64,000 nt of DNA, taken from contig CM073323.1 in NCBI GenBank assembly GCA_037043015.1, positions 26,192,758-26,256,757 on the forward strand, read 5' to 3'. This document shows positions 14,809 through 57,812 of the stretch, in pieces. The notes below the pieces were generated by a model. That model did not search any database. It had not been told where the DNA came from and saw only the letters and a list, made by a program, of their open reading frames with translations. Both the position numbers and the translations under genes were made by a program. Within the stretch, counting starts at the first letter, position 1. Each line of letters starts with the position of its first letter. This DNA comes from Bryum argenteum (lineage: Eukaryota; Streptophyta; Bryopsida; Bryales; Bryaceae).

Positions 14809-14869
14809 CCCAACTCCGCAACCAACCTTTAGCTTGTCCTACCATGTCCATTGCTTGAGTTCCACGGCC

Positions 14870-15125
14870 ACCAGCGATTGCTCGAATGCCGAGGCAGCCA
14901 TGGCCACCATCGATTGCTTGAATGCCGAAGAAGCCATGGCCAGCAGCAATTGCTTGGATGCCGAGGAAGCCATGGGTAGCATCGATTGCTTGATTGTCGA
15001 GTAGGCCATCTCTAGCAGCAATTTCTTGGATGCCGAGGAAGCCCAGGCTACCATCAGTTGCTGAGGTAGCCATGTGTAGCATCAGTTGTTTGGATGCCGA
15101 GTAAGCTAAGTCCAGCATCAATCAC
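14870..15125. repeat. 36-bp minisatellite
   Basis: About seven imperfect units of the type AGCATCGATTGCTTGGATGC + CGAGGAAGCCATGGST, nearly all 36 bp (one is 28 bp). Because 36 is a multiple of three, open frames run through it on both strands; these look like by-products, not genes. It lies just after the BTB stop, in the 3-prime UTR or an alternative last intron. Confidence 0.9.
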
Positions 15126-38302: not shown

Positions 38303-39721
38303 CTAAGTGCAGTCATTTAACACGGTTGGTACATGAGCAGCTATCATTTCAATTCCAAAACAGTGCTTCATGGTAAGAACTATTGTAGAAGTCGAAATAA
38401 CAGCCAACGATACTACAACAATGTTGATAGAAATCTGCATCTTCATTGTTACAAAGACGAATTAGCTGTGCCTACCTTCGATTCAAGGTCCCGTGTCTTG
38501 GCCTGCATCCAACACCATCAACTTTGTTCAAAAGAAGAAGTACAAAACTTCACACATGGAGCTTACCACGACCACCTATACTTCAGAATGTAAAAGTATT
38601 CACCGACACCTTGTTGTCCGGAATACTTCGATACAGAATCGGAAAAGCCCATGTTGCAAAAAAGAAGAAAGCATTTGAATTCAGTTGCTAAAAATTACCT
38701 GAAATGCTTGTGAGCGTCTTAGAAGAGGATCAAGACGAAGAGCAGTAGCAAGAGCATCTAAAGCAGGCTCAACTTGGCCCATTGCAGATAACGCATCCGC
38801 CTGACGCACAAAAGCCTGCAAGACCACCACTATGTGTTCATTGCATTAAAAAGACTAGAAAAGCAATCAAGATTACAATTCTGTACCTGAGCCCACTTGG
38901 GAGCGATTCGTTGAGCCTCTTGTGCGTCTTCCAAGGAGCCCTGGAAGTTCCCCTGAGCTAATCTCAATGCAGATCTGCAACAACCCAGAGTTTCAGACAG
39001 CATGACGAAGAATATTGACCGCAACAATTTAGAGGATGTAAGAAAGGACCTGTTGGCGTATATGAAGTGCAATCCTCCGCTTGGACTCAAATCAATTGCC
39101 TGCATAAGCAACAATGAATCTTGTAAATGAGTGGGAGGAGTATCACACGTATCTTTCTGGAGAAAAGGGGGAGCAGATACCTCTGTATAAAGCTCCTCAG
39201 CTTCTGACAGGTTACCTCTTTCAAACGCTTTGTTGGCCAGCTGCTTCAACCCCAGAGCCTTGAGATTTTTTTCTGGATTTGAAGCTCCACATTCTAGAGC
39301 TAGAAGACGAGCAGCGTGCGCCGCAGTATTGCAGTGGCTCACCACAACCTCTGCGGGAAGGATCACCAAATTTGGACCATTGCCACATCTTCCTGCATTC
39401 CATAATTCAAATCAGCATATCGTATGATCCGATGTCACATTCATTGACAAAGATCGAGAATGAGCACTTACCGAGACAACTGCATGATTCCACTGTTACA
39501 TTCGGCGGTGCCAAACTTCGAATCACGTCCAAAGTCTCCAAGCTCCCGCTCTTTTTGCATGTCGTGTTGATGCAAACCCTGATCTCATGCTGCCCTTCCG
39601 TTGTTGCATTGGCCCTCACTCCAAAAACCCTAGAATGTCTCGGGTGATTGTATATGCACCCGTGTTCTTGATGAAAGACGAGGAACTGACCACCTCTATG
39701 AATCATTCCAGCTGCTGCCAT
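38303..39721 (-). CDS. thioredoxin-like [2Fe-2S] ferredoxin with TPR domain
   Basis: Seven exons on the minus strand, 39721-39472, 39392-39181, 39099-39050, 38974-38887, 38815-38699, 38502-38476 and 38434-38303, joined in phase, give 291 aa. After a likely plastid transit peptide comes a thioredoxin-like ferredoxin unit with Cys ligands in the pattern C-x4-C (VCINTTC) and CSCLGRCG. A TPR superhelix follows: KQLANKAFERGNLSEAEELYTEAI, FIYANRSALRLAQGNFQGSLEDAQEA and AFVRQADALSAMGQVEPALDALATAL. Plants have such two-domain proteins, but I know of no settled function; electron transfer or Fe-S handling with TPR docking is the simplest guess. The last exon is least certain: it would add a hydrophobic membrane-like helix. 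Confidence 0.75.
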
Positions 39722-40822: not shown

Positions 40823-43800
40823 ATGGAGATGGCAGAGAGTAGTGCTAGCGATGAGGAATCGTACTGGAAGCTTGTAATTCCGCGTGAGCGGATTTTATTC
40901 GTGCAGTCGCCGGGAACGGAGGAATTTGAGGTATTTCTGACGGCTATGGAGGAGGCCAGGATTGTGGCGATGGACGCGGAGTGGAAGCCAGTGAGGAGAG
41001 CGGGTGTGTCTCCCCGCGTTTCAATACTGCAAATGTCGTGTCGGATCAGGAAGGAGTCGAAAGCTTGGGCGACGATGGAGAAGATTTTACTGGCGAGGAG
41101 GATTAGGGCGGAGGTGGAGGAGAGCTTCCAGGCTAAGAAATCGGAAGTGGAGAAGCAGAAAGACGATCTTCAGAAGCAGCAAGAAAAGCTACAGAGGGAG
41201 CGCGAGGAGATGCAGAAGGAGATTGAGCTGGAGAAGCGGAAAGTGAGAAGGGACAGGGAGAATTTGAAGAGGGAGAGAGCAGAGAAGAAGCGGAGAGACA
41301 AGAAAGAGAGAGAAGAACTACTATTAGAGAAGGCTAGTCCGAGAAAAGAGCGTGAAGCAGAGGACGTTGTTGACGAGCGTCCCGCGCTTACAAAACTCCA
41401 GGATGGCTTGAAAGATCTTGTTCTGGGAAGGAATGCCGAAATTTCTGGAGTGGCAGCGGATCTCGCAGGAGGTGGCCAGCAATTTACCGACAATGATGTG
41501 ATTACTCCGAATGTCAACACTGAGGACCCGGAGCAGAACATAGACAATCTGCTTGATGTACTCGCGCAGGCACAGAAGGAATTGATGAAACACCAGGAGG
41601 GTGAACAGCATACAGATTCTACAGAAGCCAGATTAGAGACACTTAGTAAGGACGATAATCCGGAGCCTGAAACGAATTATGCCTTTCCTGCTAGTAAAGA
41701 CCTAATTACAGAAAATGGATTGATAAGCAGAGATACTGAAGTTGAGGATCGAAAAGTGAAGGAATCTTTCGAAGAGAAAGCGAGAAATTCTGAAAGGGGT
41801 GAAGAATTGCAAACAGCGCCACCACGAGCTGACGGTGGTGTAGGGGAGACGGAATCCAAAAGCTCCATCGAGCAAGTTACAGATATAGACTCTGAAGAAG
41901 GGGATACCTCTGATAGTGATCAAGTGTTTTCGGACGCTGGGGAGAACGAATTTGATGTGGACGAGGAAGTTACAGAACCGGCACCAGAGCTTGTTCACAG
42001 CAATGATGGAAAAGGACTCACAGAGGAAGAGAGGGAGATTTTTCGAGGAGAGGAAGTTATTTTCATCTTGGATATGCTTGCTCTTTCAGCTGCTGACTTT
42101 GCACTCCCGATGAAGAAGATGTTGTGCTCATCTAGGATCTTGAAGCTGGGCTTTGAGTTTAAGAATGATCAACTTCATTTAGCTGCCTCTTTCCCAGATG
42201 CCATTGGCTGCTTCGACAAGGTCGTTGCTTCAGCTTCTAATCTCGTGTTGAGTGCATCCGGCTTGTAGCAGATATTCCTTTTTGTGTCTTACTGATTGCT
42301 CTTAGTTTCAAGATAGCTGATGTCGACTTCCGTGGTCACATTACAATCAGTCGAGATGGTAGCATAACGAATAGTATCTACATTTTTCTCAGTCAACTGA
42401 AGGTTCATAGTGACGTCCGTTGCAGGTGGAACCTTACATGGAAATCGCCAAGTTGTACAAACAGTTGATACACGCAAGTTCTGCCAGCATGAAGCACAAA
42501 GGGAAGAGGTTTGTTTTAGGAGGAACCTACAGTCTAACAGGGATCTCGAAAGCAGTTCTTGGGCACCCTCTACGTAAGGTACGAGTCTATCATGAGATTA
42601 CTTGAAATAAGTATGCAGAATCTTCGTGCGAGTTCACTGGCACTCTCAAAGTTGTAGGTGTGAACATCTGCATTCTGGTTAATTCTGAATGATGAAGGAT
42701 TTCTTATGTTTTAGTTGGGTATGTCTTGTGGCAGGATTCTCAGTGTAGTGACTGGGAGCAACGACCTCTTACGGATGATCAATTTTATTACGCTGCTGCT
42801 GATACTCATTGTTTACTTGCTATATTTGACGCGTTACTGTCCGACGCTTTAGCACTAATTAGCCCACCTCGAGCTCCTGCCGAAGCTGGCGATAAGCCAG
42901 GATTGACGATTCAACAGCGAGCACCGAGTCTTCGTGAAATTAGAGGAGAAGGGTTAAAATTTCTCACAGGTACGAGACGGGATGTCTGTCGTTGATTCAC
43001 TTAGTATAGCTTTCAGAATCATGACCATTTTGAAAAGGACCCTTGAGAAGTTGATTTGCATCACCACAACTTCTGGTATTTTTTGCTTTATTGGATTCCC
43101 TCAATCATTCTTTAACGACGATTTGACTCGTTGGTTTTTAGTAGGTGTATTCTATAACATGAAGATATCGCTCTGTTGATTCGTCTCTTGACCTTGTTCG
43201 CACCAACATGTTCTTGCAGGGTTGGATAAAATGCGAGAGACTTCTCCCGTTAGTCGCATCTATACTTCAAGGATGAGCACTGCTTCACAAATGGTAGAAG
43301 CCGCACTTCGACCCTCACCTCTGTCGTCTCCGCGTGAGCCTGTTGCGACTGACGAACAGCGGCATTCGGCTGAGAGGTTCTCCAAGTTTGTGAAGAAATA
43401 TTCAGACCGCTTGATGGTTAACGATTCGGGTCGCAGTAAGTCACATGCTCGTAGGCCGAGAGGTCGGCGAGCCAGGGAGGCCTTGAGGAATCCAGAAAAT
43501 AAAGATGAGCTGAATCTGGAATGGGCTGGACCTGCACCGTGGGACACAAGAATCGGCGGAGATGGGGTACCAAAATTCTTGTGTGATGTGATGGTGAGTT
43601 CATATCTGGACACCTACACGTCAGTTGCTAATCAAGTCCTCTTTACTGGCTTCTGTTGCAACCAGTAAGGTAACGTAGATTCTTCGCGAGCTGATTGGGA
43701 ACTGCTCTAGGTGGTCTGCACATCTTTATCAATGGATATAATTCATATCCGGGTCTTAGATGGTTGAGTGTGTGCATCGCAGATTCAAGGATTGGCTCGA

Positions 43801-45488
43801 CAGCTGCGTTGTATTGGTATTGATGCAGCTTCACCTCCGGGGAAGAAAAGTGATCCAAGGTATTGACTTTAATCTGCCAGTAGGCATGTCTGGAACCACA
43901 TGCATATCGCCTCGTATGTTTTCCGAGATTGAGAATTTCAGCCGAAGACCTGGTTTAAGAATAGTAGGGGCTGCACTGAATGTACTGTTGATAGTAGAGG
44001 AGATGTGCGTGGTCTTGCGATTCACGTCTGGTTCGAACTTGATGGATCACAGGCAAATGGTTGAGCAATCAGAAGCGGAAGGTCGTATATTGCTAACGAA
44101 GGACATCAAGCTGTTGCGACGGCGACTGATGCCCGAAAATCTGGCTTACTTTGTTAAAAGAAATGGAAAATGGGAACAGCTTGAAGAGGTACGTTTTAAA
44201 GAGAGATGTTGGCTGTTTGTTTGAAATAGCCTTACGTCTGCTTCAAGATTCAATGGCTCCCTGTGCTTCCGCTGAATCGGAATACGCCCTGTATCTTCTT
44301 TAACATCCTTGGGGTCGACACATCAGGTGATGAAGGTATTTCAGATCACGGTATCTGAATCAGAACTGTTGTCAAGATGTGTCAAGTGCAACGGAGAGTT
44401 CACGCCGAGGCCTCTTTCATCAAAAGAGGCCAAGGCACAAGCTCCTGCTTCGCAAGACATTCCACGATCCGTCCTCGAGTCTTGTGAGGAGTACTGGCAG
44501 TGCTCTGTATGCGGACATCTTTTCTGGCAGGTTAGTCCCTCAGAGTTCTTCATATTTAATCTAAAAAGCCCTTCTACTAGAATTCTCAATATATTTCGAG
44601 TATAAATGACCATGCTTCGATTACAGATGCGTGGATTTTTTTGGAGGCTCACGAGTCGGAAATATCGCTTTTTACAAACAATTTCGAGTGTATCAAGAGG
44701 AAGTGGATTCAATAACTGCCTTCCTTTTATACACGTGATAGAATGGTAACGATCAACCACCGTACTATCCATCAATTAAGAGCTAGTATTCTCTCCAGCA
44801 GCTGGAGAGACTATTGCAAAGCTCAGACTAGGAGTTTCTTGACCTCGCCTCCCTCTCAAAACTCGAACATTGAACCCCAGTAGAACGGCTTTTTTCAACT
44901 TTAGGTCAAACCTCATCGGGAAGAGTAACCCTATGATAGTATCTGCCTGCAGTGGTGAAACCACCACTTTGCTGGCATCCGAAGCTGGAGTGAAGCTTTA
45001 TGACCATCAAAGTCGCCTTACCTCTTCATGATTGGGTTCGGAAATGATACACTGAACGTCGATAAGTCATACCCCTAATTAATGAGTAGAGTAATGTTGC
45101 TGTCTCTGATCGTGTCCTGTCCAATGCAGTTACATCATTTCTTCAAAGAGCGGTTACGGTCTATAATTCACCCAGCTGACAGTGAAGAGGGGGCAACATC
45201 TGCACCTTGAGAAAAAACAATGTGTGCACGACGCTGACCCTCCTTTTCTGTTTCAAGTAGAGGATTCGAACGTCAGTCACATTCTAACGTTTTCCCACTA
45301 AATGTGGATCGCAGGGCTTCCAGTTCGATCGAGCCAAGCAAAAGTTCGCAGCTGTGTGTGTGAAGGCAATCCAGGAAGACTCAGCTCCAGAAGATGATGG
45401 TCCCATTGAACCTCTTGACATCGCTTGTGAGTTTCTGGAGGAGCCTGAGAAGGCATTTGCACTTTCTCATGGTTCATCAATGACCTAA
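40823..45488 (+). CDS. Mut7-like 3-5 exonuclease with Mut7-C domain and split exonuclease fold
   Basis: Eight exons, 40823-42220, 42426-42578, 42735-42969, 43220-43593, 43783-43859, 44053-44188, 44327-44530 and 45315-45488, join in phase to 916 aa. The DEDDy exonuclease domain has Exo I at residues 50-54 (MDAEW), the next strand SILQMSC (67-73), Exo II around LKLGFEFKNDQL (about 441-451) and Exo III YYAAADTHCLL in exon 3. Between SILQMSC and GEEVIFILDML (409) lie about 335 extra residues: a charged coiled coil (about 92-180), then an acidic disordered part. The C-terminal half is the PIN-like Mut7-C RNase domain (KFLCDVM, LARQLRCIGIDA, EGRILLTKDIKLLRRR) with a zinc ribbon (CVKC...CSVC). Relatives include nematode mut-7 and animal EXD3, which act in small-RNA pathways and RNA decay. 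Confidence 0.87.
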
Positions 45489-51254: not shown

Positions 51255-52815
51255 ATATTTTGGAACGGTGTGAGAAAATTCTATCACTTGAAGATCGCGT
51301 TTAGCCAATGAGGATTTAACACAAACATGCAATTGTATGTGATTATTTTCAGTCCAACAATGTTCGGGCCTATCAATTGTTGACATCTGGCATGAAGTGC
51401 TGCAAAGGAAAGAATGCAATGAGGATTTCTAGTCCGAGAATGTCTCAATTTGTACATTCTTATTTTGCAGAATTTACACAGTTTATAGAAAATTGGTAGA
51501 ATTTTGCAAGACAAATAACCATAATCATTTGGGCAATTTTTGAAACAAATGAATCATAGGATGGATACATTGTTTTACTTCAAGTCTAACAACAAGTTCA
51601 TTGAAAAAGCACCCGTAGGAGAATAGAAGGAAATGTGGAGGAAGGCGCTTTGAGGGTGATTGAATAGGGTGGATGAGGTTGAGATAGAAACTCCTTTTGG
51701 ACTTCGAGTCAATCATATAATGGGAATTGACTAAGAGAATATTCCATCTATCCTATAATGTCAGATCAATACGTTCTCTCAAATCTCCTTGATGGTAGAT
51801 TTGAGAGAACCTATCGATCTGACATTATGGGACAAAGCGAGTAATAAGTATCTCCCACACCCTCTTTGCTCTTCTCCAAATATTTTTGAAGTTGGGCATT
51901 TCAACAAGTTGCCCACCTCATGCCAATGTTGCAATCTCATTGGTTCTCACCTGGCCTCCAAATTTTCCATAGAGAAATAATTGCCTTGTTTCTATTTTAA
52001 GGCTTAAGGGCGCATTACACTCAAGACCATGAAGATTGACCACATTCTTCCAAGATCTACCATTGGCCAAGAAAAAACTTTTGGTCCAATTTCGCATTAC
52101 ACTACCTTGAAAGAAGGGGATTGACTAATAAGTTCGAGGTCCCGAAAGTAAGCTAAATTATTTAAAATGCATAATGTTTCATGGTCTTTTGAATTATTAT
52201 TTAAGCTTCGACAAATGCTTTGCCTCAATTATAATCTAAGAGACTAGAGGGGTCAACAATCATTAATTGGCTATTGTTTAATGACTTTAAGATGTAGGTA
52301 TTCTTTTACCCCTTACCTGTAAATCCACCTTCGCAGATTCGTAACTTGTCGGAGAGTTCAAAAATGATGAATCCACTTGGATTGTCTTTCCACTTACTTT
52401 CCCGTACACAAAAATTTCTTACACTTTTAACTTCACTACAGATTTTCCCATGATGAAATTTTTGAGCCATTATTGAGCACTCTCCCTTACGTTCATGGCG
52501 ACTTGCAGATTCTCAAAAAAAGGCTTGAAACGGGGTTGCATAACATGGCCATGACATGTTCAAAATTTTAGGCGGCAGCAGTTCCCTGGCGATGGCGACA
52601 GCTCTCACTCTCCCGCCTCCAGTAGTTCGACACCTAACTTCTGCTCAACGGTTGCTTTAACCTCCCATTTAGCATCACCAGGATTCTATCACACTCATTG
52701 TAGCTTTCAATTCGACCACAGAAGTATACTGTCCGATCGATCCGCGCATCTTTAAGCAATTTTTACGATCGATCCTCGCATCTCTGAGCAGTTTTTGAGC
52801 GTCGTGAAATCTGCT
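51255..52815. other. intergenic
   Basis: Holds one Stowaway-like MITE (51742-51841) and otherwise AT-rich DNA without coding signal. The last 250 bp should contain the promoter of the following gene; CGATCGATCC(T/G)CG occurs twice near 52733-52775. Confidence 0.5.
51742..51841. mobile_element. Stowaway-like MITE, second copy
   Basis: 100 bp between TA dinucleotides (51740-51741 and 51842-51843). The left end TTCCATCTATCCTATAATG and the right end CATTATGGGACAAAGCGAG are imperfect inverted repeats. The inner arms pair strongly (GTTCTCTCAAATCT with AGATTTGAGAGAAC). Related to 1004-1105. Confidence 0.82.
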
Positions 52816-53406
52816 ATGAGCTTGCCGATGAATTCATCTGTGCCTGTACACATGCACACGAGTGGAACTACTGCTCCATCTGCTCGCCATGTACCGCTCA
52901 CTGCCGATGCCAGGGCCACATGGGAAGCCTGCGTCCAGGCTCTATATAGGCAAGATGCTGTCGATGAGTGCTTCGGGCACCATGATAATTTGTGCAAGCA
53001 ATTCTTCTGTGTGACTTGCAAGGAAGGCGGCGTCTGCAAGGCCTTCAATCGTAAGGTTGTCAACGCTCTCGACTCGAACAATCAGGTTGTCAAATCCTAC
53101 AGCCAGTTCGACGTCCCACATGACTTTCTGCGTGTCCATGGTATCCATGGAAGAGACGCAGTGGCGCTTAAGGGTTTAAAAAGAATGCCCGGTGACACGA
53201 AGGAAGTAATGTTGTACAAAGACTGTAACGTCGGCGATGTGCACTACCTGCGTAAGAGTGATAAAGCACCAAGAGCCCCTCGGCTGTGGTGTCATGGCTG
53301 TCAGAAAGATGTATCGACTCAACGCGCTGTGGAGGAGTGGAATGCAAACCACGCAAAAGTGTGTTCTATCGAGTGTTTCCTGGTGTACGATCTAGCTCGC
53401 GTGTAG
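52816..53406 (+). CDS. PLATZ-like zinc-binding protein
   Basis: A single exon, 196 aa. After a Ser/Thr-rich start the protein shows His/Cys clusters in the order expected of PLATZ proteins: CFGHHDN, FFCVTCKEGGVC, a central VVKSYSQFDVPHDFLRVHGI stretch, RLWCHGCQKDV, and CSIECFLVYD at the end. PLATZ factors are plant-specific AT-rich DNA-binding repressors of RNA polymerase II and III genes. The match is to spacing and character rather than strong identity, so a divergent or lineage-specific zinc protein remains possible. The start is the first ATG; an earlier in-frame start would need a non-ATG codon. The stop lies 7 bp from a 14-bp tandem array. Confidence 0.6.
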   Translation: MSLPMNSSVPVHMHTSGTTAPSARHVPLTADARATWEACVQALYRQDAVDECFGHHDNLCKQFFCVTCKEGGVCKAFNRKVVNALDSNNQVVKSYSQFDVPHDFLRVHGIHGRDAVALKGLKRMPGDTKEVMLYKDCNVGDVHYLRKSDKAPRAPRLWCHGCQKDVSTQRAVEEWNANHAKVCSIECFLVYDLARV

Positions 53407-53412
53407 GACTCC

Positions 53413-53552
53413 TACGGCGTAGGCGATACGGCGTAGGCGATACGGCGTAGGCGATACGGCGTAGGCGATACGGCGTAGGCGATACGGCGTAGGCGATACG
53501 GCGTAGGCGATACGGCGTAGGCGATACGGCGTAGGCGATACGGCGTAGGCGA
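53413..53552. repeat. 14-bp tandem repeat, ten perfect units
   Basis: TACGGCGTAGGCGA repeated ten times without a mismatch, ending in a partial TAC. It begins 7 bp after the PLATZ-like stop codon, so it should be transcribed in the 3-prime UTR. GC-rich against AT-rich surroundings. Confidence 0.97.
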
Positions 53553-55640
53553 TACTAGCTTGTAGTGCTAGTGAGTAATTACTGTGAGCAGTTGTATTCT
53601 TCCCCTCACCTTCATGTTTTGATTTCATCAAGTCTATTTCACTCTTTGAAGACCTTTGCTAAGCTCTTCAGTTGCGTCCAACACAGGCCTTACAAACCTG
53701 CCGGTACTGGGAGATGTCCACTTGATCGTACAATCCAGACTGCTCAGTATATTTCTTGAAATTGCTAGCTTCGTACACAGAAGTCAGGGCGAGTTACGCA
53801 ACTACAAGAACTTCTGAAAGAACTTAGGCTGGTTAAGCTGTACATACAGATTGATTGGACTGTATAAAATGACCAGGTTGATGTTCATACTCTCTGCCAG
53901 GTCCGTTTGTATCTGGAGCTAGCTTGTATCTCTAGAATTGTTATTGTGTTCGTTTGTGTTAAATTGGATATGTGTGACCACGAATATTCAATTACGATGC
54001 CGAAACTAACTCATTGTAGGATTACGTATCTGGGAAAGCAACCACATATGCAACAGTCAGCAACACAGCGGCCTCCTCTACAACCACGAATGAGCCAGCT
54101 TAGCAGGTTCAGTTATTGTGGTTACCTTTACACGATTAAGTTACTCTATTGATTCTTTCACAAAACTGGGAGGTGAATGATTCATATTAAAGTGGTGAGA
54201 TTTAATGGTTAGCAATTTCACATGGCGAATAGCTGCTTGAAGGTGTTTTGCAAGTTGTTCATAAATCCAGGCGGCGGTATTACTCTGCTCCGGGGAGACA
54301 AGTTGCCGAACTAAAAAGTGCATTCCCCATAGCACTCCATCATTTGTTCCCAGTTTCCATCAATCATTCCTTGTTCCTACCATTTTTTCACTTCATCATC
54401 CGTTCCTGGTTGTTGGTTCCTAGTTCCTCTCCCATGTTCCCTTGATCTCTTGTTCACTCCTTCTTTGCTCCTAGAATATGCCTCTAAAATGACACTATTT
54501 AGAACACGGACCAGAGTGGCACATGTTTTGCCAAAATCGCACATGTGCTAACACCACTGGTGTAACAAAATTGGGGTTCCTTGTGAAATACATGAGATTA
54601 GAAATCGGAATACCTCGCACTTGAATTAACAGTTTACATGAACACATTATTCATAGATTACTATATATTGCAAGTGTATGAAGTTGAAGTGCTCTACTTA
54701 GGAATTACGACTCTTGTACATGATTATTGCAATACTTACACTTGTAGAAAATGGCACTGAAAGTGATTGCCGTAGTGACACAAAGTACCTTTTTTAGTTG
54801 TGCTTTTAATAACATCAAAATATAATATTATACTTGTCACTTCCCCTTGAACTTTGTTGCGTTGTAATAAGCATACTTCAACCTACTAAAGTAAATAAAC
54901 CCTTGTGAACTCCTTGCACATCATGAAACGGACTACTGAACCCAGCACCAACACCAAGGTAACACCAAATCACTGGAAGAAGCAAAGAACCACCTTGCTG
55001 ATGAATCAATAGGACAAGTATATTCGAACCCGCAGGGTTACCGATATCGCATCGGTAGTGATAAGTGGAACATCGTTCGAATTTAGCCAGGATTACGCAC
55101 GTGAAGACTTGCAAAATTCGAAAGCGCATGATGACATCCGCGAAAGATGCAGTGTGCATACAAGAATCAGCCGCCAAGCAACTTCTCCAACCCAGCACAC
55201 ATCATGAACGTAACCACTGACTGACGCGAACATGATGCTCCAAATCTGCAACGAGAGTACCAAATTGATCGCACCAGAGAGCAAATATCCTCGGCCATGA
55301 CGCCGCAACCCCGCTCGCCGATGCCGCTACGGTATACACAAAGTTATTAACTAAATCGATAACACAAGTACACATCCTAAAGAGTAAAGAGCGAAACAAG
55401 CAACATCGGAAACTGTCATCCCTGCACACGAAACTATTTTATGTTCACGAGGCATGCCCTCACTGGAGTTAGAATGCGGATGAGCTCCAGGTACGTGGGC
55501 CGCACGATCAGGCGGGGGCCTCTACGCCGTTCGATCATCAATGGACTACGAAGTTTCGACGAATCGATAGAGATGGGTCATCCAAATCGTAATTATTCAT
55601 CCATGTTATTCATCCAAAATGATTACATTCATCTGTGGGT
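53553..55640. other. intergenic, no gene seen
   Basis: Only short frames without domains. 54470-54860 shares phrases with 27120-28210. Around 55010-55060 the minus strand has GGGTTCGAATATAC preceded by CCGATGCGATATCGG, weakly tRNA-like. No firm feature. Confidence 0.45.
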
Positions 55641-56173: not shown

Positions 56174-56207
56174 AGACAACGACCTTGCTTTGTAGAATAA
56201 ACCAAGA

Positions 56208-57812
56208 ATGGCGATCCGGGTGGTGAATCCGAATGCGGAGATGCTGAGTAAGTCAGCAGCTCTGCACATGAACATAAGTGCCGCGAAGGGGTTACAAGAC
56301 GTGTTGAAGACGAACTTAGGGCCGAAAGGAACGATTAAGATGCTTGTGGGCGGGTCAGGGGACATCAAGCTGACTAAGGACGGTAACACATTGTTGAAGG
56401 AGATGCAAATCCAAAATCCTACCGCTATCATGATCGCGCGGACGGCCGTTGCGCAGGACGACATCAGCGGGGACGGCACAACTTCAACGGTTTTGGTGAT
56501 CGGGGAGCTTATGAAGCAAGCGGAGCGGTTCATTGCCGAGGGGATGCACCCGCGCGTGCTGGTGGACGGATTCGAGATCGCGAAGAAAGAGACGCTGGCA
56601 TTTCTGGAGACTTTCAAAACCCCCGTGGCAGTTGGTGACCAGCTCGACAAGGAGTTGCTCAAAGTGGTTGCTCGGACGTCACTTCGAACCAAGGTGCACG
56701 AAGAGCTTGCCGATAAGCTCACGGAGATTGTGGTGAACGCCGTGCTGTGTGTGCAGAAACCAGATGAAGCCATCGATCTCTTCATGGTGGAGATCATGCA
56801 CATGCGACACAAGTTCGATACCGACACCCGTCTAGTAGAAGGTCTGGTCCTGGACCACGGTGCTCGTCACCCTGACATGAAGAAACGTGTAGAAAATTGT
56901 TATATCCTGACATGCAATGTCTCATTGGAGTACGAGAAGAGCGAGGTGAACGCCGGATTCTTTTACCACAACGCCGAGCAACGGGAGCGAATGGTGGCAG
57001 CCGAGCGTCGTTCAGTGGACGAGAAGGTGCTGAAGATCATCAAGCTGAAGAAGCAAGTGTGTGATGGCACCGACAAAAACTTCGTCGTGATCAACCAGAA
57101 GGGCATCGATCCTGTATCCCTCGACCTACTGGCCCGCGAAGGAATCGTAGGTCTTCGGAGGGCCAAGCGCAGGAACATGGAGCGGCTGATCCTCACATGC
57201 GGTGGCGAGGCTGTCGAGTCTGTTGAGGATTTAACTCCAGATGTACTCGGCGAGGCTGGCGTTGTCTACGAACACGTACTCGGCGAGGAGAAGTACACAT
57301 TCGTAGAGAATGTGAAGAACCCCCACTCTTGCACAATTCTCATCACAGGACCGAACGATTACACGATTGCACAGATCAAGGATGCCATTCGGGATGGACT
57401 GAGAGCAGTGAAGAATACCATAGAAGATGAGGCTGTGATCTTGGGAGCTGGTGCGTTCGAAGTGGCTGCTCGCCAGCATTTGATGAACAATGTTCGGAAG
57501 ACAGTGCAAGGAAGAGCTCAGCTGGGAGTGCAGGCATTCGCTGATGCGCTTTTGGTGATTCCAAAGACATTGGCTGACAACTCGGGGCTTGATACGCAAG
57601 ATGTGCTGATCAATTTGCAGTCCGAGCATGATGCTGGCAATGTTGTTGGTTTGGATCAGACTACAGGCGACCCCATTGACCCCAACGTGCAAGGAATCTT
57701 CGACAATTACTCCGTGAAACGCCAAATCATCACCTCTGCGCCAGTGATTGCAGCTCAGCTTCTTCTTGTCGACGAGGTCATCCGGGCGGGTCGCAACATG
57801 CGCAAGCAATGA
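56208..57812 (+). CDS. CCT6: CCT chaperonin subunit zeta (TCP-1 zeta)
   Basis: One intronless frame of 534 aa, the full family length. CCT6 is one of eight subunits of the cytosolic TRiC/CCT ring that folds actin, tubulin and other proteins using ATP. Group II chaperonin signatures are visible: [10 protein letters not shown] (37-46), [10 protein letters not shown] (86-95, ATP site), the substrate/lid region, and [10 protein letters not shown] with [14 protein letters not shown] in the second equatorial half. [20 protein letters not shown] at the start is typical of the zeta subunit. The absence of coding introns is unusual beside its multi-exon neighbours but may be ancestral. It is convergent with the claspin-like gene. 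Confidence 0.97.

Follow-up and report, generated by a model that had tools for sequence, protein, structure and literature searches.

What would it mean for an exonuclease if two strands normally adjacent in its catalytic domain were set 335 residues apart in the chain, and is the sequence between them translated at all? These questions are raised by a MUT-7-like gene in a window of 64,000 nucleotides of Bryum argenteum DNA (the whole stretch that was analysed), where an earlier note had described an exonuclease domain core split by a large insertion. The interpretation favoured here, with somewhat better than even confidence, is that the gene would encode a MUT-7/EXD3-type 3'-5' exonuclease with a translated 335-residue insert between strands beta2 and beta3, forming a tether-like arm.

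The gene and its domains

A hand-built model with GT-AG introns, supported by an unbroken frame and family matches, places the predicted gene at 40823-45488 on the forward strand (as are all features described below), with a product of 916 aa. There are eight exons (40823-42220, 42426-42578, 42735-42969, 43220-43593, 43783-43859, 44053-44188, 44327-44530 and 45315-45488), the first of them an open frame, and the seven introns are inferred. The stop coordinate given earlier, 45488, agrees with this spliced model, and so do the motif positions reported earlier (MDAEW at 50, SILQMSC at 67, GEEVIFILDML at 409).

The exonuclease domain is present in two parts. The N-terminal part (residues 33-73, 40919-41041) comprises beta1, in which Exo I lies (D51, E53), followed by beta2 (SILQMSC); when exon 1 alone is compared with the DNA_pol_A_exo1 profile (PF01612), these residues match profile positions 8-48, but weakly (15.9 bits, E 0.012, under the curated cut-off of 23.6 bits). 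The C-terminal part (residues 409-552, 42047-42839), which runs from beta3 onward through the end of exon 1, exon 2 and part of exon 3, carries Exo II (D449) and Exo III (Y536-x3-D540), and the match obtained with the whole protein, at 58.5 bits, pairs residues 407-552 with profile positions 47-169. The two parts thus join at profile position 47/48, and if the insert is removed in silico the match becomes a single stretch, positions 8-169, with 75.3 bits. The DEDDy family is defined by the motifs D-x-E, D and Y-x3-D, and all five of the corresponding catalytic residues (D51, E53, D449, Y536, D540) are in place.

Comparison with known structures gives a more mixed picture. The intact protein ranks 7jw6 first among PDB sequences, and with the insert removed 14 PDB sequences are matched, the junction being crossed without a gap in all five of the alignments displayed (in the 7jw6 alignment a single residue is gapped, five residues past the junction). 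However, the exonuclease with its insert removed scores slightly higher against the WRN exonuclease (2e6l, 60.3 bits) than against the MUT-7 homologues 7jw6 (57.1 bits) and 7jw2 (55.2 bits), which counts against a specifically MUT-7 reading.

C-terminal to the exonuclease, as in MUT-7/EXD3, lies a Mut7-C domain (residues 713-869, exons 4-8, 43570-45344), which matches PF01927 over positions 1-145 of 146 with an E of 1.5e-33; no further Mut7-C match was found in the same genome. Its CxxC pairs 809/812 and 850/853 (C809, C812, C850, C853) would be the candidate Cys4 zinc finger of Mut7-C. MUT-7's own Mut7-C structure is matched only at E 0.22 (phmmer). Only 32 residues precede the PF01612 match, which leaves no N-terminal HEAT-like domain of the kind seen in Nibbler and MUT-7; as this is an animal feature, its absence was not taken to disqualify the protein from the MUT-7/EXD3 group. 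An Argonaute-hook reading was dropped, there being no WG/GW motif in the 916 aa. Judged by its profile matches and motif residues, then, the encoded protein is a DEDDy 3'-5' exonuclease plus Mut7-C, i.e. the MUT-7/EXD3 layout minus the animal N-terminal domain; the earlier domain assignment, including the putative Cys4 site, and the view that Exo II, Exo III, Mut7-C and the zinc ribbon are probably intact, are both upheld.

The insert and the beta2-beta3 hairpin

The insert occupies residues 74-408 (335 codons, 41042-42046) and lies wholly inside exon 1, so that the earlier description of a split within one uninterrupted exon stands as to position, size and openness. (The range that had been named for checking, 41035-42050, exceeds the insert by a few bases.) How unusual this is can be judged from the spacing between the beta2 Gln and the beta3 Asp-equivalent, which is 346 here. 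Among 18 bacterial loci it is 11 in the 17 that are covered (L013 being the exception), although eight of the 18 are Acinetobacter and hence not independent, while a spacing of 10 is seen in all four of the genome's other PF01612 loci (counted by hand, two of them across an inferred intron). A short hairpin of 10-11 residues is therefore found in 21 of the 22 comparison loci, the other being the one not covered, and is lacking in this gene. Such a hairpin is typical of DEDDy exonucleases rather than defining for activity. The available part of PMC3985635 places the beta2-beta3 hairpin at the sheet edge and describes insertions there as relatively rare, while that of PMC6330322, on the NrnC structure, has nothing on this turn.

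Several properties bear on whether the insert is coding. None of 2000 mononucleotide shuffles of it was open (mean 19.8 stops), and a chi-square of base by codon position gave p 7.5e-18, each of its five 201-nt blocks having p < 0.02; of the controls, some periodicity is likewise present in intron 1 (p 2e-4), and there is little of it in exon 4 (p 0.06). Low-complexity coding sequence, it may be added, easily yields periodicity. The T content is 17.4%, as against 28.9-37.6% in the seven introns of the gene, and of 11,996 overlapping stretches of 1005 nt, sampled from the rest of the window at 5-nt steps, none has a T content as low.

A source for the insert was also sought. A genome search in which simple repeats and very common words are passed over found no second DNA copy, and no protein relative was found in the genome with E < 1, three other protein matches being taken as chance because of their E values (2.6-8.9) and internal stops; no relative was confirmed in IMG/VR. 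The only repeat that touches the 3' junction is one of 17 nt, 82% alike, which is attributed to chance; a search for inverted repeats at the junctions gave none. As these searches found neither another DNA or protein copy nor notable junction repeats, origin from a transposon or a duplicated gene was rejected. Since the insert is open, codon-periodic and poor in T, and the searches turned up neither a second copy nor a donor, it is very probably coding sequence. Its origin may lie in coding sequence that grew, or was captured, next to a family intron site.

No credible known domain was found in the insert using Pfam, NCBIfam and PDB: matches to acetate-kinase, ATG14 and NHLM_micro_HlyD (E 0.03-0.36) and to a PDB entry (E 1.3) were under curated cut-offs or not significant. 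The coiled coil proposed earlier fares unevenly. A shuffle test for heptads, applied to six segments, supports residues 95-150 (p 0.001) and 100-140 (p 0.0015), which overlap one another, but not 90-175 as a whole (p 0.08), where the peak of hydrophobic periodicity is at 3.6 (plain helix) rather than 3.5 (coiled coil). A possible coiled coil is thus confined to residues of about 95-150 (41105-41272), and the sequence continues highly charged to about residue 175. A single alpha-helix of the ER/K type was rejected for the charged stretch, acidic-to-basic pairs from i to i+4 being no more frequent than in shuffles (the reverse direction was counted only). A charge-hydropathy plot places residues 81-400 among disordered sequences, and the end of the insert (residues 346-408, 41858-42046; 22 D/E, 4 K/R) is acidic and predicted to be disordered.

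Intron, neutral expansion or functional arm

That the insert is entirely or largely intronic, spliced out constitutively or alternatively so that the main product would be an ordinary enzyme with a length of about 580-600 aa, we consider distinctly unlikely. The idea draws on the seven other introns in the gene and on two of the four paralogues (L002 and L006), in which a phase-0 intron directly follows the beta2 Gln, three codons upstream of the insertion point; here, however, the codon after that Gln is ATG, not GT. Close to the two junctions there are 13 in-frame GT-AG pairs, the best of which would remove a hypothetical intron of 966 nt (41035-42000) containing most of the insert. Its summed score of 5.4 (donor 2.2, acceptor 3.2) exceeds those of two of the seven inferred introns (4.4 and 4.3, within a leave-one-out range of 4.3-16.5), so that the site scores are compatible with an intron, but its donor score is under those of all seven (3.5-9.3). 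The scoring is in any case permissive, 286 GT-AG pairs inside exon 1 passing both minima, and a score as good as that of this pair is reached by 16.5% of random placements. It was on base composition, openness and codon periodicity that an intron was set aside as the main explanation; the in-frame splice pair keeps it as a rival. Far less credible is an assembly artefact, or a neighbouring gene fused into the exon, against which stand a frame kept on both sides, exact family spacing once the insert is removed, the absence of a second genomic copy as DNA or protein, and junctions marked by nothing beyond the chance repeat.

A possibility of rather more substance, if on balance an improbable one, is that the insert is translated but functionally neutral: a permissive hairpin on the surface would have taken up a disordered, lineage-specific expansion that has no partner of its own. 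Much of the insert is highly charged, acidic and predicted to be disordered, neither a known domain nor a relative was found for it, and the hairpin is at the sheet edge, all of which would fit such an expansion; on the other hand, some 55 residues show a significant heptad pattern, and 335 codons have stayed without stops.

On the favoured reading of a translated, tether-like arm, the two halves would fold as one DEDDy domain, since without the insert the profile match is a single stretch with standard spacing. Given the published sheet order 3-2-1-4-5, with beta2 antiparallel, the insert would branch off at the hairpin of the edge strand, and as this end of the sheet is the one remote from Exo I, it need not block catalysis. 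The arm would first run out as a helical stretch, which may be a coiled coil, and then come back as a long acidic segment that is mostly disordered. Less certainly, and by analogy with the insert in the Mut7-C domain of C. elegans MUT-7 that binds MUT-8, the arm could be a lineage-specific tether through which the nuclease is recruited by a partner or to a compartment; in a protein without room for a HEAT-like N-terminal domain, it may supply the recruiting function. The insert would accordingly be described as a lineage-specific, largely disordered arm at the sheet edge, with a possible coiled coil, and perhaps as a recruitment module.

A bolder form of this proposal, offered tentatively and itself rather improbable, is that in this lineage a near-invariant hairpin has grown, at an intron position of the family, into a recruitment arm of 335 residues that docks the nuclease on a partner and replaces both the animal N-terminal domain and the worm MUT-8-binding insert, as a third independent solution to targeting. 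Animal MUT-7-type nucleases are targeted via add-on modules, according to the available part of PMC11347159; an independent module inside the catalytic domain, if real, would imply that a DEDDy core can be retargeted with its active site unchanged, and the arm's partner would offer a handle on the role of the plant-type enzyme, on whose function no paper was found among the literature matches listed.

Comparison with known systems

The closest parallel is with MUT-7/EXD3 (C. elegans MUT-7, human EXD3; PF01612 plus PF01927), which share the DEDDy exonuclease, the Mut7-C domain after it and four candidate zinc-ligand cysteines, and two structures named Exonuclease mut-7 homolog (7jw6, 7jw2) are among the PDB relatives of the protein. 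The differences are that the large N-terminal domain is absent here, the exonuclease match beginning at residue 33, and that the exonuclease insert is extra. According to the accessible sections of PMC11347159, the HEAT-like N-terminal domain has been proposed as the part that brings Nibbler to AGO-bound RNA, while the insert that binds MUT-8 in C. elegans MUT-7 is in Mut7-C, not in the exonuclease; the same source lists Mut7-C exonucleases of 516 aa from Arabidopsis (A0A1P8BGD5) and 505 aa from soybean (A0A0R0GNL3). As exonuclease, Mut7-C and a 335-residue insert together need about 677 aa, these angiosperm enzymes should, judged by their listed lengths, have no space for so large an insert.

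PARN belongs to the DEDDh family, and thus to another exonuclease family, and its insert is a named domain as against the charged helix and disorder predicted here. The likeness lies in an extra module inside an RNase H-like exonuclease domain, in PARN an R3H domain (PMC3985635, in the part available). RNases H2 and H3 are not 3'-5' exonucleases, and the same part of that source describes no long charged or acidic arm for them, but it does place helices between beta2 and beta3 of their RNase H-like fold, the same place of insertion as in the present protein.

The gene and its divided exonuclease domain

The gene at 40823-45488 (plus strand) was modelled by hand as eight exons with GT-AG borders and a single continuous frame of 916 codons, and in its predicted product Pfam recognises PF01612, a 3'-5' exonuclease domain, and, at residues 713-869 (E 1.5e-33), the Mut7-C domain PF01927. 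The predicted catalytic residues D51, E53, D449, Y536 and D540 are all there, together with two CxxC pairs (809/812 and 850/853), which agrees with an earlier note on this DNA, according to which Exo II, Exo III, Mut7-C and the zinc ribbon look intact. Mut7-C was matched once in the 258.8-Mb genome (25 contigs; only the best candidates were scored), whose GT-AG introns show it to be eukaryotic. The closest solved structures are chains of an "Exonuclease mut-7 homolog" (7jw6 and 7jw2) and WRN exonucleases; 7jw6 is the top PDB match for the intact protein, but WRN 2e6l takes a slight lead when the insert described below is removed (60.3 bits, against 57.1 for 7jw6), so that it is Mut7-C more than the exonuclease domain that assigns the protein to the MUT-7/EXD3 type.

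In the Pfam search, residues 33-73 correspond to exonuclease profile positions 8-48 (weak when taken alone, at 15.9 bits) and residues 407-552 to positions 47-169, while the 335 residues of the insert (74-408; 41042-42046, within exon 1, between beta2 and beta3) gave no convincing match in Pfam, NCBIfam or the PDB. Removing them yields a single unbroken exonuclease match of 75.3 bits, as against 58.5 for the intact protein, and the split of the domain that the earlier note had claimed is thus upheld. None of the five alignments displayed (2e6l, 7jw6, 7jw2, 2fbt and 9hzg; 14 sequences were matched) has a gap at the junction, that with 7jw6 having a one-residue gap five residues past it.

Counted in residues from the beta2 Gln to the beta3 Asp position, the spacing is 346 in this gene and 11 without the insert. 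It is 11 in 17 of the 18 bacterial loci (eight of the 18 being Acinetobacter, and the remaining locus, L013, not being covered) and 10 in all four of this genome's further PF01612 loci, as counted by hand and in two cases across an inferred intron; the own-genome search gave five matches, the fifth being the present gene. In PMC11347159, Arabidopsis and soybean proteins in the Mut7-C alignment are listed at 516 and 505 residues, so that, judged by these listed lengths, they have no room for a 335-residue insert; no such insert is reported in open-licence PMC papers, among the matches listed.

Several other features lie in the window. Upstream of the nuclease gene and divergent from it is a frame with a TPR-like match (38830-39411, minus strand; E 1.2e-5, under the curated cut-off), and a TCP-1/cpn60 chaperonin (PF00118, E 6.8e-167) is encoded at 56196-57812 by 538 codons in one open frame. 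A perfect 14-bp tandem repeat at 53413-53555 (TACGGCGTAGGCGA, 10.2 copies, 100% matches) directly follows a 216-aa open frame (52756-53406). Another tandem repeat, at 14862-15062, has a period of 36/72 bp, divisible by three, and lies a short way 3' of an open frame of 421 aa; neither frame has a Pfam match.

Coding sequence or intron

That the insert is an intron, for instance 41035-42000, appears unlikely. Its frame contains no stops (none of 2000 shuffles was open; mean 19.8 stops), its base use varies with codon position (chi-square p 7.5e-18, with p < 0.02 in all five 201-nt blocks), and its T content is 17.4%, as against 28.9-37.6% in the introns, lying below that of all 11,996 overlapping equal-length stretches taken from the rest of the window; a comparison with A, standing for T of the opposite strand, had the same outcome. 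The codon-position signal is absent in six of the seven introns (p 0.31-0.66), most of them short, but is found in intron 1 (p 2e-4), and it is marginal in exon 4 (p 0.06). Close to the junctions, 13 GT-AG pairs are in frame. The best is that at 41035-42000 (966 nt), and two of the seven inferred introns (4.3-16.5, leave-one-out) fall below its score of 5.4; its donor is weaker than those of all seven, and 16.5% of random placements score as high, using a matrix built on seven introns and permissive enough that 286 pairs inside exon 1 pass both minima. Opposite the insert, on the minus strand, there is a 168-aa open frame (41170-41676), probably a by-product of the purine-rich coding strand.

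Character, origin and position of the insert

Of the coiled-coil and acidic character proposed in the earlier note, the acidic end stands (22 acidic and 4 basic among the final 63 residues of the insert), while the coiled coil probably holds over a shorter stretch. Of six segments tried for a heptad pattern, two that overlap reach significance (p 0.001 for 95-150, p 0.0015 for 100-140), but 90-175 taken whole does not (p 0.08), so that a coiled coil is likely, but short. Hydrophobic periodicity over 90-175 has its peak at 3.6 and not at 3.5, as would be expected of an ordinary amphipathic helix. Residues 81-400 fall on the disordered side of the charge-hydropathy plot in all eight windows of 40 residues, though this plot also classes charged helices as disordered. 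No WG/GW motif occurs in the 916 residues.

As to origin, searches of the genome at the DNA and the protein level turned up the insert nowhere else, and hence no donor can be named. Two paralogues have a phase-0 intron directly behind the beta2 Gln, with an identical codon border: L002, on the minus strand (between LLQ and ICGES, the intron starting at about 2003), and L006 (between LVQ and ISTYS, the intron starting at 389), which by their motifs are WRN-like and RRP6-like; L003 and L005 have none there. In the present gene an ATG codon comes next after this Gln, and the insert starts three codons past the Gln. Given these paralogue introns and the great length of the insert-bearing exon (1398 nt, against 77-374 nt for the others), it would fit that coding sequence grew, or was captured, where an intron had once been.

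The strand order is 3-2-1-4-5, with beta2 antiparallel (PMC3985635). By topology, the beta2-beta3 turn should then lie at the sheet edge, at the far end from the beta1 tip with Exo I, and an arm placed there need not, for that reason, hinder the active site.

Possible function and known systems

The simplest functional reading is that the insert may act as a tether, which would put the nuclease on a partner or into a compartment; a serious rival, with perhaps a modest chance of being right, is that the turn is permissive and the insert expanded there neutrally. The tether is suggested by three precedents. In C. elegans MUT-7 an insert in Mut7-C (which itself contributes to RNA binding) binds MUT-8, bringing MUT-7 to Mutator foci, and Nibbler has a HEAT-like N-terminal domain by which, it is proposed, the enzyme is brought to AGO-bound RNA (both PMC11347159), while PARN has an R3H domain inserted within its nuclease domain (PMC3985635). 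Nibbler's HEAT-like domain is absent from the present protein, and the insert of MUT-7 lies in Mut7-C, whereas here it lies in the exonuclease domain; with PARN, in contrast, the protein shares an extra segment inside the nuclease domain itself.
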